Of a stretch of DNA of 64,000 nt, positions 30,389 to 64,000 are shown one piece after another; within the stretch, counting starts at the first letter, position 1, and the number at the start of each line of letters is the position of its first letter. The notes under the pieces were generated by a model. That model made no database searches. It was not told the DNA's origin and was given only the letters and a program-made list of their open reading frames with translations. Location of the stretch: contig JAKSKX010000004.1 of the NCBI GenBank assembly GCA_024401535.1, positions 111,490-175,489 of the forward strand, read 5' to 3'. This DNA is from Paludibacteraceae bacterium (GTDB lineage: Bacteria; Bacteroidota; Bacteroidia; Bacteroidales; Paludibacteraceae). The position numbers and the translations under genes were made by a program.

Positions 30389-31552
30389 CTAGTACCTTTC
30401 CACTTCGCAAGTTGATGGAAAAGCGTCCTTGCCAATCTCGCAGCCTTTCGGCACTCGTGCTGATTTGAGGCTCTTGCATAAATTGAACGCATTCTCACCG
30501 ATTGACTTTACCGAACTGGGAATTTCCACGCTTTTGAGGCTTGTGCAGTCATTGAACGCAAACTCTCCGATTTCAGTCACCTAGTTTGGAATATTGACGC
30601 TCTTGAGGCTTGTGCAGTAGCGGAACGCACCATTGCCTATTTTAGTCACCGAGTTAGGAATTTCAACGCTTTCCATGTTTGTGCAGCCCTCGAACGCACC
30701 GCTTCCGATTTCAGTCACCGAACTTGGAATATTGACGCTCTTGAGATTTGTGCATCTGGTGAACGCGCAAGTTTTGATTGACTTCACCGAGTTTGGAATT
30801 ACGACGCTTTTCAGGCTGTCGCAGCCAAAGAACGCACCATTCCCGATTTCAGTGACCGAGTTTGGAATCTCTATGCTCTCTAGGCTTGTGCAGCCCTCGA
30901 ACGCTCTTATTCCGATTGCAGTGACCGAGTTTGGAATCTCTATGCTCTCTAGGCTTGTGCAGCCCTCGAACGCTCTTATTCCGATTGCAGTGACCGAGTT
31001 TGGAATCTCTATGCTCTCTAGGCTTGTGCAGCCCTCGAACGCACCGCTTCCGATTTCAGTCACCGAGCTTGGAATATTGACGCTCTTGAGATTTGTGCAT
31101 CGGTTGAACGCGTTAGTTTTGATTGACTTCACCGAGTTTGGAATCACGACGCTTTTGAGGCTTGTGCAGCCAAAGAACGCCGCATTCCCGATTTCAGTGA
31201 CCGAGTTTGGAATCTCTATGCTCTCTAGGCTTGTGCAGCCCTCGAACGCACCGCTTCCGATTTCAGTCACCGAGCTTGGAATATTGACGCTCTTGAGATT
31301 TGTGCATCGGGTGAACGCAACTATGCCCACGCTTGTCACCTTGTATGTTTTGCCCTCGACTATAACCTCGTCTGGTATTTCAACGCTCTTGACAGTTTTC
31401 TTCATGGCAGAGTTTTTCAAGCCGGCTACCGTAGCCTCTTTTCCCGAGACTGTGTCGAACTTCAGTGGCGAATCTTCAGCCTTGACCGGCTTGGCGAAGG
31501 CAGTCAGCGCAATGCCGAACACTGACAGCAATATTAGAATCAGCTTTCTCAT
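30389..31552 (-). pseudogene. BspA-like leucine-rich-repeat surface protein with an in-frame stop
   Basis: The gene has a signal peptide (MRKLILILLSVFGIALTAFA) and then about 13 repeats of 23 residues (LRR_5/BspA type, form VTEIGxxAFxGCTSLExIEIPNS). It ends in a C-terminal module, LKSARVPKGCEIGKDAFPST, closely matched by the gene at the right edge of the window. A TAG at 30581-30583, where other repeats have TCG, splits it into 323 and 63 residues, so it is either a pseudogene or tolerates early termination (a sequencing error is also possible). The 69-base units are nearly identical; two adjacent ones around 30910-31050 seem to be exact copies. BspA-type proteins are cell-surface or secreted adhesins. 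The promoter is at 31578-31585. Confidence 0.8.
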
Positions 31553-35123: not shown

Positions 35124-36050
35124 ATGGCAAATATTTATAATAGCGTGACTGAGCTTATCGGTCGTACACCTTTGTTGCGTCTTAACAATATCGAGAAGGA
35201 GGAGAACTTGCAGGCACGTCTGCTTGTGAAGTTAGAGGCTTTCAACCCCGGTGGCAGTGTCAAGGACCGTATCGCCCTTGCAATGATAGAGAAGGCTGAG
35301 CAGGACGGACTGCTAAAGCAGGGAGGACTTATCGTTGAACCTACAAGCGGTAATACAGGTGTAGGACTTGCTTGGGTTGGAGCTGTAAAGGGATACCGTG
35401 TTATTCTAACTATGCCCGAGACAATGAGCATCGAGAGACGCAAGCTTGCTGCAGCTTACGGTGCAGAGATTGTCCTTACTCCAGGTTCAGAGGGAATGAA
35501 GGGTGCAATAGCTAAGGCCAAGGAAATCATCGAGCAGAATCCAGGTTCATTCCTTCCGCTTCAGTTCGAGAACCCTGCAAACATACTTGTTCATGAGAGA
35601 ACAACTGCAGAGGAAATCTGGAAGGACACAGACGGAGAGGTTGACATCTTCGTTGCCGGTGTCGGTACAGGCGGTACTGTTTCTGGCGTTGCAAAGAGAC
35701 TAAAGGAACACAAGACTTCCGTTGAGGCTGTTGCCGTTGAGCCTGCAACTTCAGCTGTACTTTCAGGAAACAATCCAGGCCCTCACAAGATTCAGGGTAT
35801 AGGTGCCGGATTCGTTCCAAAGAACTTCAAGCGTGACTACATAGACGAAATAGTTCCCGTGTCTAACGAGGATGCGATAGCCACAGCCCGTCGCTTGGGT
35901 AGAAACGGTTTCCTAACTGGCTTCTCTTCTGGTGCCGCATTGTTCTCTGCAATAGAGTTGGCAAAGCGTCCGGAAAACAAGGGCAAGACAATCGTCGCAT
36001 TGCTTCCTGATACCGGAGAGCGCTACCTTTCAACTGTACTATACGAATAG
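35124..36050 (+). CDS. cysK: Cysteine synthase A (O-acetylserine sulfhydrylase)
   Basis: This 308-residue PLP enzyme replaces the acetyl group of O-acetylserine with sulfide. The PLP lysine is Lys47 in [12 protein letters not shown]. Substrate and phosphate loops [12 protein letters not shown] and [11 protein letters not shown] are intact, with the C-terminal SSGAALFSA. It fits the sulfide-assimilation role of its operon partner metY. No cysE is present nearby. Confidence 0.95.
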
Positions 36051-36104
36051 TGTCATAATAACATATAATGTTTGTTCAGCCCTTGTTCGTTTGGGCTTAA
36101 AAGA

Positions 36105-36139
36105 CAAAGGCATTCCCGAGTGATTCAGGAATGCCTTTG
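36105..36139. terminator. Hairpin after cysK, probably for the leftward relic gene
   Basis: The 12-base arms CAAAGGCATTCC and GGAATGCCTTTG (36105-36116 with 36128-36139) are followed on the minus strand by a T-rich run, and on the plus strand by no U tract. A smaller AGCCC/GGGCT hairpin near 36078-36097 lies closer to cysK. The large one may belong to the decayed gene at 36160-36320. Confidence 0.6.
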
Positions 36140-36159
36140 CATCATGTATAGCTGTCTAA

Positions 36160-36320
36160 TTATTTCTTGATGATAAGCTGTGTGAGTATGTGCTTGCCCG
36201 CCACATCTACGTCCTGGCTCCAGTTGGGAGTACCCACGATTATTACAGTTTTGTGCCTGTAGTCCCATCGCGCATGAAAATGCCACGAACAGAGACGCAA
36301 TGAACTTTTTTGAATCGCAT
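36160..36320 (-). pseudogene. Collapsed secreted-protein gene (signal peptide joined to C-terminus)
   Basis: On the minus strand the ATG at 36318-36320 opens MRFKK. After one inserted base the frame continues as FIASLFVAFSCAMGLQAQN, a clear signal peptide. In another frame the sequence then reads VGTPNWSQDVDVAGKHILTQ to LIIKK and a stop at 36160-36162. So the start and the end of a secreted-protein gene survive while the centre is gone and the frame is broken. A -7 element TACCTTTG (complement of 36414-36421) and a TTTG at 36437-36440 remain upstream. Confidence 0.65.
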
Positions 36321-36543
36321 TAGATTAGAATTATTGTTAAAGTTTGCTGTGATTAAGCTATTAGTGTGTTTTTCTTTTTCCATTGCCAAAGTAAACTTTG
36401 CGCAAGGACAATGCAAAGGTATTAAAATCGTAATTTCAAACTTAACAAAACAATTATAATACTGATTAAAAGGGCTTTTGTTAATTCTTATCCCCTTTTT
36501 TGTTCATTGAAAAGAGTCTGCCGTTCCGAATATATTGTTCGTA

Positions 36544-36925
36544 GATGCACATTTCAACCTTTCCATCTTTCAAAAGCCTTTTGTAAAACAACAAGAGGGC
36601 ATTGACGCGAGGAAAAGCCGATTTGTACATGTACAAAAGGCTTTTTCCAAAAAGAAAAGTCGATTTGTATATGTACAAAAGGGCTTCGACACGAGGAAAA
36701 GTCGATTTGTATATGTACAAAAGGACTTTGACGCGAGGAAAACACGATTTGTTTATGTACAAAAGGACTTTGACGCGAGGAAAACACGATTTGTTTATGT
36801 ACAAAAGGACTTCGACGCGAGGAAAACACGATTTGTACATGTGCAAAAGGCTTTTTCCAAAAAGAAAACACGATTTGTAAAACAACAAAAGGACTTTTCA
36901 CGAGGAAAAGCCCTAAATGTGCATC
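36544..36925. repeat. Array of eight 42-base repeats bounded by an 11-base inverted repeat
   Basis: Cores of the form TTGT-N6-ACAA (variants below) start at 36581, 36623, 36665, 36707, 36749, 36791, 36833 and 36875, so the period is exactly 42 bases. Core centres in order are AAAACA, ACATGT, ATATGT, ATATGT, TTATGT, TTATGT, ACATGT and AAAACA; the seventh core ends GCAA. The 28-base spacers are of two kinds: one with GACGCGAGGAAAA, the other with CTTTTTCCAAAAAGAAAA after cores 2 and 7. Unit types thus run A-B-C-C-D-D-B-A. GATGCACATTT (36544-36554) and AAATGTGCATC (36915-36925) are exact inverted copies at the ends. Because 42 is a multiple of three, frames stay open on both strands, but all begin at TTG and none has a ribosome site. 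Iterons, protein-binding arrays or a degenerate coding repeat are possible. Confidence 0.85.
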
Positions 36926-36970
36926 CCAAAATCATTCTGCGAGAGAATGCAGAAGTTTTGGGCAAAAAAT

Positions 36971-37004
36971 AAGGGAGTGTGCCTGAATTGACACACTCCC
37001 TTTT
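36971..37004. terminator. Terminator of the secreted-protein operon, bidirectional
   Basis: The stem AAGGGAGTGTG/CACACTCCCTT (36971-36981 with 36992-37002) is followed on the minus strand by TATTTTTTG and on the plus strand by TT. It ends the leftward operon 38833-37025 and seals off the repeat array. Confidence 0.85.
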
Positions 37005-37024
37005 GCAATATCTAAATAACTATG

Positions 37025-38392
37025 TTACTTTATAAGGATTGGGCGCACATAATGTCCCTTATATACAGGCGAACCCCAGTTCTCTTCTTGATTGTTACTG
37101 ATTTCATCTCTCCATCCGTAATGGTTTTCCCAATAGTAGCCGTAAGGAAAGAACAAAGTTTTCTTGTTTGGTCCGGTGAAAAGCCAACCTGTCACGCCGT
37201 CCCTCTCTACGGTCTCGTGCTTGCAATTTTCGTAAAGCTCAATGAAATCCGCCTGGCTAGGAATTTTCCATGATGCACCCCAGTTTACATATGCAGCATC
37301 GAAATCAAGGTTCAATATGTAATTGTTGTCCATTACACCGGCCTTGACCAACTCGTCTTTTTCAAGTCCGTACCATTTTGAGTTCTCTTCTGTGAATGAG
37401 TCTTTAGGTGCAGTCTCTCCCCAAGCGAAAAGGTTACCGCGGTCGCTGTTCTTGCTTGCACCGACGTTAGTCTCTGCCCACAAAGTCTTGCTTGGGAGTC
37501 CAAGGTCAACGAAAACGTGGCCGTTGACTTCAGGGAATCTTGTGTCGATGTAAGGCTTGTGGCTCTCTTTTCTGCGAACAGGTCTGATTACTCGGCCATA
37601 GCTGCGGTTAAGAGTTCCCACGCTTACGCTTTCCTGGCTCAAGTAGATTTGAGCGGCAGTGTAAGTGTCCTCGCCCGAAGAAGCTGACATGTAGTATCCT
37701 CTTGTGCCTTCAAGTACGGTTCCCTCTGTGCCTCTCTTGAAGCCGGCGCATGGAAGGAATATGCTGTTGCCGTTCGAGCCGGTGAACTCGATTCCGTTGA
37801 CACCGTTCTGCTCAACCCACTTGTGCGAGCAAAGGTTTACAAGCTCCCACATTTCCTGCTTGGAAGGCATGCACCAGTCGTCGCCCCAATAAACACTAGC
37901 AGCGTCATACTCCGGAGTCAAACAAAGGTATGAGTCGATGACACCCTTGCTTCTTAGTTCGCTAACAGATGTGCTGTACCACTTTCCTCCCTGCTGAGGG
38001 AAGTTTAGTCCTGCTTCCGTTACACCCCACTGGAAGTAAAGTCCGAAGTTCTCCGGCTTTTTAGCTCCCACGTTGCAAGTAGCCCAAAGAGTTCCCGAAG
38101 GAAGCCCCAAGTTAACGTACTCGTGCATGAATTCGCTTGAATCGATGGACGAGATGGTTGACATGACTTTCTTTAGCGAATCAACCTCTCTTCTTAGCTG
38201 TGCGATGCTGTTGGCCAAGTCCTTGAAACCGTATATTTTTGCACCGTTGATGTCGTTGAAAGTCAAGCTGTCAACAACGCTTTCAGGGAAGCTTGTGCCG
38301 CTTCCGTCTTTCATGATTACGTAGAACTGGCTTTGTGCCATAGCTACAATGTTTGCAATCAGCATTGCAAACGCCAATAGAAATTTCTTCAT
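37025..38392 (-). CDS. Secreted protein with two FISUMP-type domains
   Basis: The 455-residue protein has a signal peptide (MKKFLLAFAMLIANIVAMAQ) and a short coiled segment (about residues 60-80, LANSIAQLRREVDSLKK). Two related domains of about 170 residues follow, each starting with the sequence VxLGLPSxTLWAxxNVGA (residues about 92 and 288) and containing FxWG and the closing RVIRPV / YVRPI. This is the Fibrobacter succinogenes major paralogous domain fold, found in many surface proteins of Bacteroidota. A function in adhesion or glycan binding is inferred only. It is the second gene of the operon with 38408-38833. Confidence 0.8.
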   Translation of the reverse strand: MKKFLLAFAMLIANIVAMAQSQFYVIMKDGSGTSFPESVVDSLTFNDINGAKIYGFKDLANSIAQLRREVDSLKKVMSTISSIDSSEFMHEYVNLGLPSGTLWATCNVGAKKPENFGLYFQWGVTEAGLNFPQQGGKWYSTSVSELRSKGVIDSYLCLTPEYDAASVYWGDDWCMPSKQEMWELVNLCSHKWVEQNGVNGIEFTGSNGNSIFLPCAGFKRGTEGTVLEGTRGYYMSASSGEDTYTAAQIYLSQESVSVGTLNRSYGRVIRPVRRKESHKPYIDTRFPEVNGHVFVDLGLPSKTLWAETNVGASKNSDRGNLFAWGETAPKDSFTEENSKWYGLEKDELVKAGVMDNNYILNLDFDAAYVNWGASWKIPSQADFIELYENCKHETVERDGVTGWLFTGPNKKTLFFPYGYYWENHYGWRDEISNNQEENWGSPVYKGHYVRPILIK

Positions 38393-63618: not shown

Positions 63619-64000
63619 TTAGTAGTATTCAATTTCGCAAGTGTATGGGAATGCATCCTTAACCTTTCCTTTCAAACTTACTGGCACACGTGCTGTCTTT
63701 AGTCTTGAGCAATTCCAGAATGCACCCTTTCCGATTGAAGTTACCGAGTTAGGTATTTCGATGCTTGTAAGGCTTGTGCACAAATAGAATGCATAGTCTC
63801 CGATTTCAGTTACCGAGTTAGGGATTACGATGCTTGTGAGGCTTCTGCATTCATAGAATGCATTCTCTTCGATTGAAGTTACCGAGTTAGGTATTTCGAT
63901 GCTTGTAAGGCTTGTGCACAAATAGAATGCATAGTCTCCGATTTCAGTTACCGAGTTAGGTATTTCGATGCTTGTAAGGTTTGTGCACTCATAGAATGCA
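63619..64000 (-). CDS. BspA-like leucine-rich-repeat protein, C-terminal part (partial)
   Basis: The frame is open from the window's right edge to the TAA at 63619-63621; the N-terminus lies beyond base 64000. About five 23-residue LRR_5 repeats are seen (VTSIEENAFYECRSLTSIVIPNS and similar), then the C-terminal module RLKTARVPVSLKGKVKDAFPY, matching that of the gene at 30389. The DNA repeats are almost identical units of 69 bases. It is probably a surface or secreted adhesin-like protein. Unlike the copy at 30389 it has no internal stop in the visible part. Confidence 0.8.
   Translation of the reverse strand, partial: AFYECTNLTSIEIPNSVTEIGDYAFYLCTSLTSIEIPNSVTSIEENAFYECRSLTSIVIPNSVTEIGDYAFYLCTSLTSIEIPNSVTSIGKGAFWNCSRLKTARVPVSLKGKVKDAFPYTCEIEYY

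Follow-up and report, generated by a model that had tools for sequence, protein, structure and literature searches.

Iteron arrays of replication origins consist of phased direct repeats that are bound by a protein. Tandem palindromes are a feature of sopC (parS-F) of the F plasmid, which comprises twelve 43-bp tandem repeats with ten 16-bp inverted repeats and is bound by ParB-F (PMC6238139). In Porphyromonas gingivalis, two kinds of intergenic tandem repeat have been described in which some copies have inverted ends, namely BrickBuilt, with 19 copies made of 23-nt repeats, and MITEPgRS (464), made of 41-nt repeats (PMC4596501). According to the same description, BrickBuilt is predicted to form long stem-loops, predicted terminators or polyadenylation sites lie near 10 of its 19 copies, and target duplications of differing length accompany three of four testable copies (PMC4596501). 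REP/BIME elements are intergenic palindromes that are clustered at times (PMC3733652).

Here we describe a tandem array of palindromes (array 1) at positions 36544–36925 of a 64-kb window, by which we mean the whole stretch of DNA that was analysed. Like sopC, array 1 is built of repeats of approximately four helical turns (8 units of 42 bp) with palindromic cores of 14–16 bp. However, its sequence differs from that of sopC, its genome has two arrays, and no par genes lie directly beside array 1 or the other one (array 2); moreover, the contig of array 1 carries cysK and two canonical parS motifs, and blastn gave no match for the array in 72,556 plasmid records. Because there is no adjacent par gene and canonical parS occurs twice on the contig, we do not claim that array 1 belongs with sopC. 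The two parS motifs (TGTTTCACGTGAAACA) are found outside the window at G000:C34:99740-99801, where their starts are 46 bp apart, and array 1 is ∼48 kb from both. Proximity to the origin was dropped as a candidate explanation: in another genome (G492, below), on the assumption that its one contig is circular, ∼0.8–1.6 Mb separates the arrays from the parS-like site. Array 1 has phased repeats in common with iteron arrays, but Pfam and NCBIfam revealed no replication-gene family among the proteins adjoining arrays 1 and 2.

Judged by published description, array 1 resembles BrickBuilt and MITEPgRS in being an intergenic tandem repeat with inverted ends, and it could be a cousin in kind of these elements. 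It departs from both in its period of 42, in the palindrome within every unit and in its divergent linker, and two of their defining features are lacking: its ends are not common to the other arrays tested, and no target duplication is seen. Unlike BrickBuilt, moreover, it is represented by two arrays rather than 19, and no leader and tail were recognized. With REP/BIME it shares intergenic palindromes, but its period is strict and single cores are not in excess outside array 1 in the 64-kb window (9 matches at two mismatches, against a mean of 9.3 in shuffles). The initial annotation of this DNA knew of no family with such an array, a statement that was not borne out, since the anatomy is close to that of sopC and P. 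gingivalis has intergenic minisatellites (PMC6238139, PMC4596501). Array 1 itself was not described in the literature searched, which included few subscription journals.

Anatomy of the array and a second copy in the genome

Array 1 is intergenic and flanked by convergent genes, cysteine synthase A (cysK; 35124–36050, + strand; TIGR01139, E 3.3e-132) and a 455-aa gene (37025–38392, − strand) whose best Pfam match, PF07603, falls under the cut-off and which has no NCBIfam match. A terminator-like hairpin is found directly 3′ of the latter gene (36971–37002, − strand). In two other genomes (G005 and G006), no array adjoins the cysK orthologues, whose product is 83% identical; the genes downstream of cysK differ there, so that neither offers a clean empty site for array 1. 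Elsewhere in the window, 69-bp tandem repeats occur at 30519–31306 and 63730–64000, which would suit coding repeats of 23 residues such as those of leucine-rich type.

The whole element, to which, as to its cores, no strand is assigned, comprises eight 42-bp units and inverted-repeat ends. Its eight palindromic cores start at 36581, 36623, 36665, 36707, 36749, 36791, 36833 and 36875. All seven steps between them measure exactly 42 bp, as first proposed, and TRF detected the array independently at 36591–36909 with a period of 42, 81% matches and 0% indels. The cores had been described as TTGT-N6-ACAA, a form that seven of the eight match exactly, the exception being core 7, which ends in GCAA. 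Core 1 is TTTGTAAAACAACAAG (36580–36595), core 2 is TTTGTACATGTACAAA (36622–36637) and indeed a perfect palindrome, cores 3 and 4 are TTTGTATATGTACAAA (36664–36679 and 36706–36721), cores 5 and 6 are TTTGTTTATGTACAAA (36748–36763 and 36790–36805), core 7 is TTTGTACATGTGCAAA (36832–36847) and core 8 is TTTGTAAAACAACAAA (36874–36889). Every unit has a palindromic core of 14–16 bp within a conserved quasi-palindromic footprint of ∼33 bp, the remaining 9 of its 42 bp forming a divergent linker; the footprint is exemplified by that round core 4 (36697–36729), its boundaries having been set post hoc. Linkers recur in several units rather than being unique, in agreement with the shared spacers noted earlier, and a CRISPR array was rejected on these grounds.

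Exact 11-base inverted copies at the two ends of array 1 were also confirmed, with GATGCACATTT at 36544–36554 (+ strand) and its partner at 36915–36925 (− strand; AAATGTGCATC on the + strand). The eight cores and the two ends share one midpoint to the base. None of 20,000 flank shuffles gave an in-register end match of at least 11, although these were single-base shuffles and the test was chosen after the match had been noticed. The end 11-mer occurs twice in the 64-kb window, at the ends of array 1 in both cases, and no target-site duplication is visible beside them (CGTA versus CCAA). At none of five further arrays (array 2 and the four of G492) were there inverted flanks of at least 9 bp, and the 11-bp ends are accordingly confined to array 1 among the six arrays tested. 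The palindromic unit order A-B-C-C-D-D-B-A of the initial annotation did not hold up: C-C-D-D is unmirrored, cores 2 and 7 differ by one base, and 36,096 of 40,320 permuted unit orders score at least as high as the actual order in self-complementarity of the whole array (P=0.90). Array 1 grew by tandem duplication of units, in the manner of a neutral minisatellite, units 5 and 6 being identical but for one base.

A profile built as a model of two units (R1) was searched against the array's own genome, which is 91.5% complete, with 150 of 1435 candidates scored, and at E≤0.1 it found arrays 1 and 2 only. Array 2 (L002; G000:C45:41544-41911) lies in the spacer between divergent ORFs and, at 42-bp steps, carries seven clear cores plus a degenerate eighth in register; the two proteins adjoining it have no family match in Pfam or NCBIfam. 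A common dispersed repeat with irregular spacing had been named beforehand as an outcome that would speak against protein-binding sites; a second copy does exist, but its spacing is exactly 42 bp. REP/BIME was rejected as an assignment because that class has many dispersed palindromes of 20–40 bp, as against two arrays genome-wide by R1, which, as a two-unit model, is poor at single sites.

Comparison of array 1 (units 2–7) with array 2 (units 1–7) showed 85% identity in the ∼33-bp footprint and 49% in the 9-bp linker, with diverged end units excluded and boundaries drawn post hoc. Dyads 21 bp apart, two per unit, are present in both arrays, array 2 having extra dyad peaks. The outer arms are complementary at 9 of 14 positions in array 1 (0 of 2000 shuffles, P=0.000, for a consensus of three units only) and at 7 of 14 in array 2 (P=0.015 versus shuffles). 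A-tract phasing at 10.5 bp was set aside as evidence, because the neighbouring 390 bp shows it too (R 0.41, against 0.46 and 0.70 in the two arrays).

Arrays and core spacing in other genomes

Across nine genomes of the genus, some of them incomplete, blastn found the array in its own genome and in none of the eight others. A strict two-core pattern applied to 300 genomes of the family matched array 1 of the own genome only; it missed array 2 and is therefore over-strict for establishing absence. R1 gave a match at E≤0.01 in 35 of 295 genomes of the order, the own genome included, and 29 of the 34 other matching genomes yielded a locus (L036–L064, one per genome). Self-comparison of the middle 600 bases of these loci revealed tandem 42-bp arrays only at L036 and L043. 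The genomes with confirmed arrays are G391 and G492, which represent one other genus and family, and there were no others among the 29 loci examined. Because R1 models two units, its search is biased towards 42-bp steps. A function, if there is one, is not widely conserved, since no array was found in the eight other genomes of the genus and confirmation in the order is limited to G391 and G492.

In G492 there are four arrays, whose steps measure 42 bp apart from a single one of 31 bp, shorter by one helical turn and not divisible by three. Judged from ORF lists, the spacers holding them lie between convergent, tandem (two) and divergent ORFs. The unit follows the plan of array 1 in other letters, with a TTGTA-N4-TACAA-type core and arms such as AAGTAC/GTACTT; one array has GTACAA in place of GTACTT as its right arm. 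The outer arms pair at 8–9 of 14 positions, against a shuffled mean of ∼3 (P 0.001–0.006), and identity among the four arrays is 84% in the footprint and 68% in the linker (boundaries post hoc). No extended palindrome was seen in 13 test rows on 12 further loci, the short-period rows offering 3–4 testable positions.

A scan of 395 genomes of the phylum for pairs of TTGTA-N4-TACAA found the own genome and G613 only, while the reversed-motif control matched G462, G699 and G958. No match was obtained by blastn against phages. Scanning of viral contigs gave four stretches, the same count as in the scrambled control, and a stricter pattern gave one. The viral contigs L143, L145 and L146, of which the last two are near-identical, have TGTACAA-type cores at 24-bp steps, a multiple of three that lies off the 10.5-bp ladder.

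We then asked how core spacings are distributed, using the genome_contigs scan for three TGTACA-type cores with steps of 21–51 bp allowed, which returned 41 stretches in 29 genomes. Each genome was given one vote, its commonest step within 15–52 bp; steps outside these limits were omitted (12 in two genomes, 13 and 74, as well as 11, 56 and 67 in GWF2_35_48). A period of 10.5 bp gave a mean cosine of 0.70 over the 29 genomes, and one of 10.75 bp gave 0.68; 0 of 50,000 simulated sets reached 0.70 under either a uniform or a decaying null, these nulls treating genomes as independent and concerning one motif type with no model of other tandem-repeat biases. Removing two near-duplicates left 27 genomes with a mean cosine of 0.69, and the ten Bacteroidota-titled records gave 0.90. 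At the codon period of 3 bp the mean cosine was 0.25 (P 0.02–0.03; 29 genomes). An earlier version of the test, with the same step limits, from which 12 genomes without a twice-seen step had been omitted before all 29 were used, gave 0.74 at 10.5 bp for the 17 genomes having a repeated step; seven of the 17 have steps of at least 28 bp, and for these P was 0.004 at 10.5 and 0.04 at 3. These data show that core spacings in the scanned set cluster round multiples of 10.5 bp, with exceptions, namely steps of 39 and 50/51 bp and those of GWF2_35_48, which fit a ladder of ∼11.2–11.5 bp. The nine arrays of GWF2_35_48 (L076, L078–L080, L089, L094, L095, L097 and L101) have core steps of 11, 22/23, 33/34, 44, 46, 56 and 67 bp.

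Explanations for the array

Our preferred explanation, to which we assign a probability of a little under one half (∼0.48), is that array 1 is a chromosomal array of putative binding sites for a homodimeric DNA-binding protein, phased on one face of the helix. Each 42-bp unit would be a single quasi-palindromic site of ∼33 bp, made up of the 14–16-bp core and A/T arms, and the 9-bp linker would be free to diverge. With four helical turns from site to site, dimers bound there would lie on one face of the DNA, where they might join into one large complex by analogy with the partition complex of ParB-F on the 43-bp repeats of the F plasmid; its role might be to anchor the chromosome between genes, or to loop or insulate it. 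The whole-turn spacing, the dyads, the contrast between footprint and linker and the occurrence between genes of all orientations together point to a protein that would act at the level of DNA, as a dimer, and multimerize on one face; a single face would then matter, and the array might play a part in chromosome structure or silencing. The initial annotation's view of the sites as non-coding, helically phased and palindromic is supported for array 1 by the spacing and by the absent coding signal. Against phased binding sites stand the tandem growth of array 1, which is that expected of a neutral minisatellite, the viral 24-bp arrays off the 10.5-bp ladder together with the exceptions at 39 and 50/51 bp and in GWF2_35_48, the weak codon-period signal that is present too, the failure to find the extended palindrome at the 12 further loci, and the patchy presence within genus and order.

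The main rival holds that array 1 is an intergenic minisatellite of MITE type, like BrickBuilt or MITEPgRS, a small element with inverted ends which was once mobile, acquired its inner repeats by slippage and affects its neighbours only incidentally. The inverted ends centred on array 1, the tandem growth of its units, its intergenic position and its absence next to cysK in G005 and G006 (which have other genes downstream) would all fit such an origin, and P. gingivalis offers a precedent in its intergenic arrays of 23- and 41-nt repeats, inverted ends being present in some (PMC4596501). We nevertheless judge it unlikely, since array 2 and the four G492 arrays are without inverted flanks of at least 9 bp, no target-site duplication is visible at the ends of array 1, their 11-mer recurs nowhere else in the window and the genome yielded no more than two arrays; slippage alone, moreover, would leave unexplained both the helical spacing and a conserved footprint beside a divergent linker. 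A neutral tandem repeat without function would account for the patchy presence across genus and order and for the duplication of units, and the viral arrays of TGTACAA-type core, with their 24-bp step, need no helical phasing; however, the spacing that stays exact and free of indels although units have diverged, dyad arms above the shuffle level and the helical clustering of steps across genomes make this explanation distinctly improbable.

Two further alternatives place the function in a transcript. Were array 1 an RNA element, its transcribed hairpins would serve as a terminator, attenuator or antisense structure, and it does fold far better than shuffles on the two strands (z −8.7 and −8.3) and contains one terminator-like site, but good folding is expected of any array of palindromes. 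A covariation test on 24 aligned units (23 distinct; 500 shuffles) gave a mixed result: it placed the share of paired cells (82.6% versus 79.4% shuffled, 2 of 500 as high) and the covariation score (0.141 versus 0.110, 17 of 500 as high) above most shuffles, whereas two stricter measures were not raised, pairs changed on both sides numbering 2 versus 3.1 (469 of 500 as high) and further pair types 7 versus 8.7 (473 of 500 as high); for cells with a change on both sides, 64 of 500 shuffles were as high. With all four Rfam matches in 36000–37500 far under their gathering scores, and helical spacing not needed by an RNA, we regard this explanation as highly improbable. A degenerate coding repeat, specifying 14-residue repeats, would agree with a period that is a multiple of three, with the codon-period signal in the 29 genomes, weak as it is, and with the several frames open on either strand, these being open because a stop-free repeat has no stop anywhere. 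It had been claimed that no ATG-started frame exists, and none of at least 50 aa covers array 1, although TTG- and GTG-started ORFs do; two ORFs over the array have no Pfam or NCBIfam match. In a codon-position test, neighbouring units of array 1 differed 17/20/22 at codon positions 1/2/3 in the stop-free + frame (9 synonymous and 10 other single changes) and 17/22/19 in the other stop-free frame (5 synonymous, 14 other), an excess neither of third-position nor of synonymous changes. Array 1 therefore shows no coding signal. In array 2, three frames are free of stops and uneven across codon positions, which would favour coding, but their third-position changes number 4, 5 or 10 of 30–31; a third-position excess (16/31) appears only where the frame has stops, and there are two stops in the frame corresponding to the stop-free + frame of array 1. 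As the 31-bp step in G492 would also break any frame, we consider a coding repeat extremely unlikely.

Palindrome rows in other bacteria

It is conceivable, if on the whole doubtful, that Bacteroidota and perhaps other bacteria share a type of nucleoprotein site on the chromosome, made of intergenic palindrome arrays of whole-turn spacing, with lineage-specific letters and a fixed geometry, on which a dimeric protein would build a filament or cluster with a single face, so as to anchor or partition the chromosome. If it is the geometry and not the letters that is conserved, such sites would escape ordinary sequence searches, and looking systematically for palindromes in helical phase could bring new chromosome-organizing proteins to light.

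Judged by sequence, similar palindrome rows, each with letters of its own, occur in other bacteria. In G462, a member of the order, a pattern permitting steps of 21–51 bp returned nine loci (L166–L174) of AACAT-N4-ATGTT palindromes at exact 23-bp steps with differing 9-nt spacers. Each locus holds four palindromes (L173 three), some units have one or two mismatches, and the loci sit between ORFs of mixed orientation. L166–L172 are all on contig C1, at most 321 kb from the parS-like sites G462:C1:990456 and 999830 and at mutual distances of 37–170 kb (P∼0.005 for uniform placement on C1, calculated post hoc); the remaining two loci are on contigs without known position. In G613, L153 and L155 contain a tandem array with a 21-bp period and units like TTGTAGCRATACAATGACCTC, with ∼11 copies counted by eye and a palindromic core in each.
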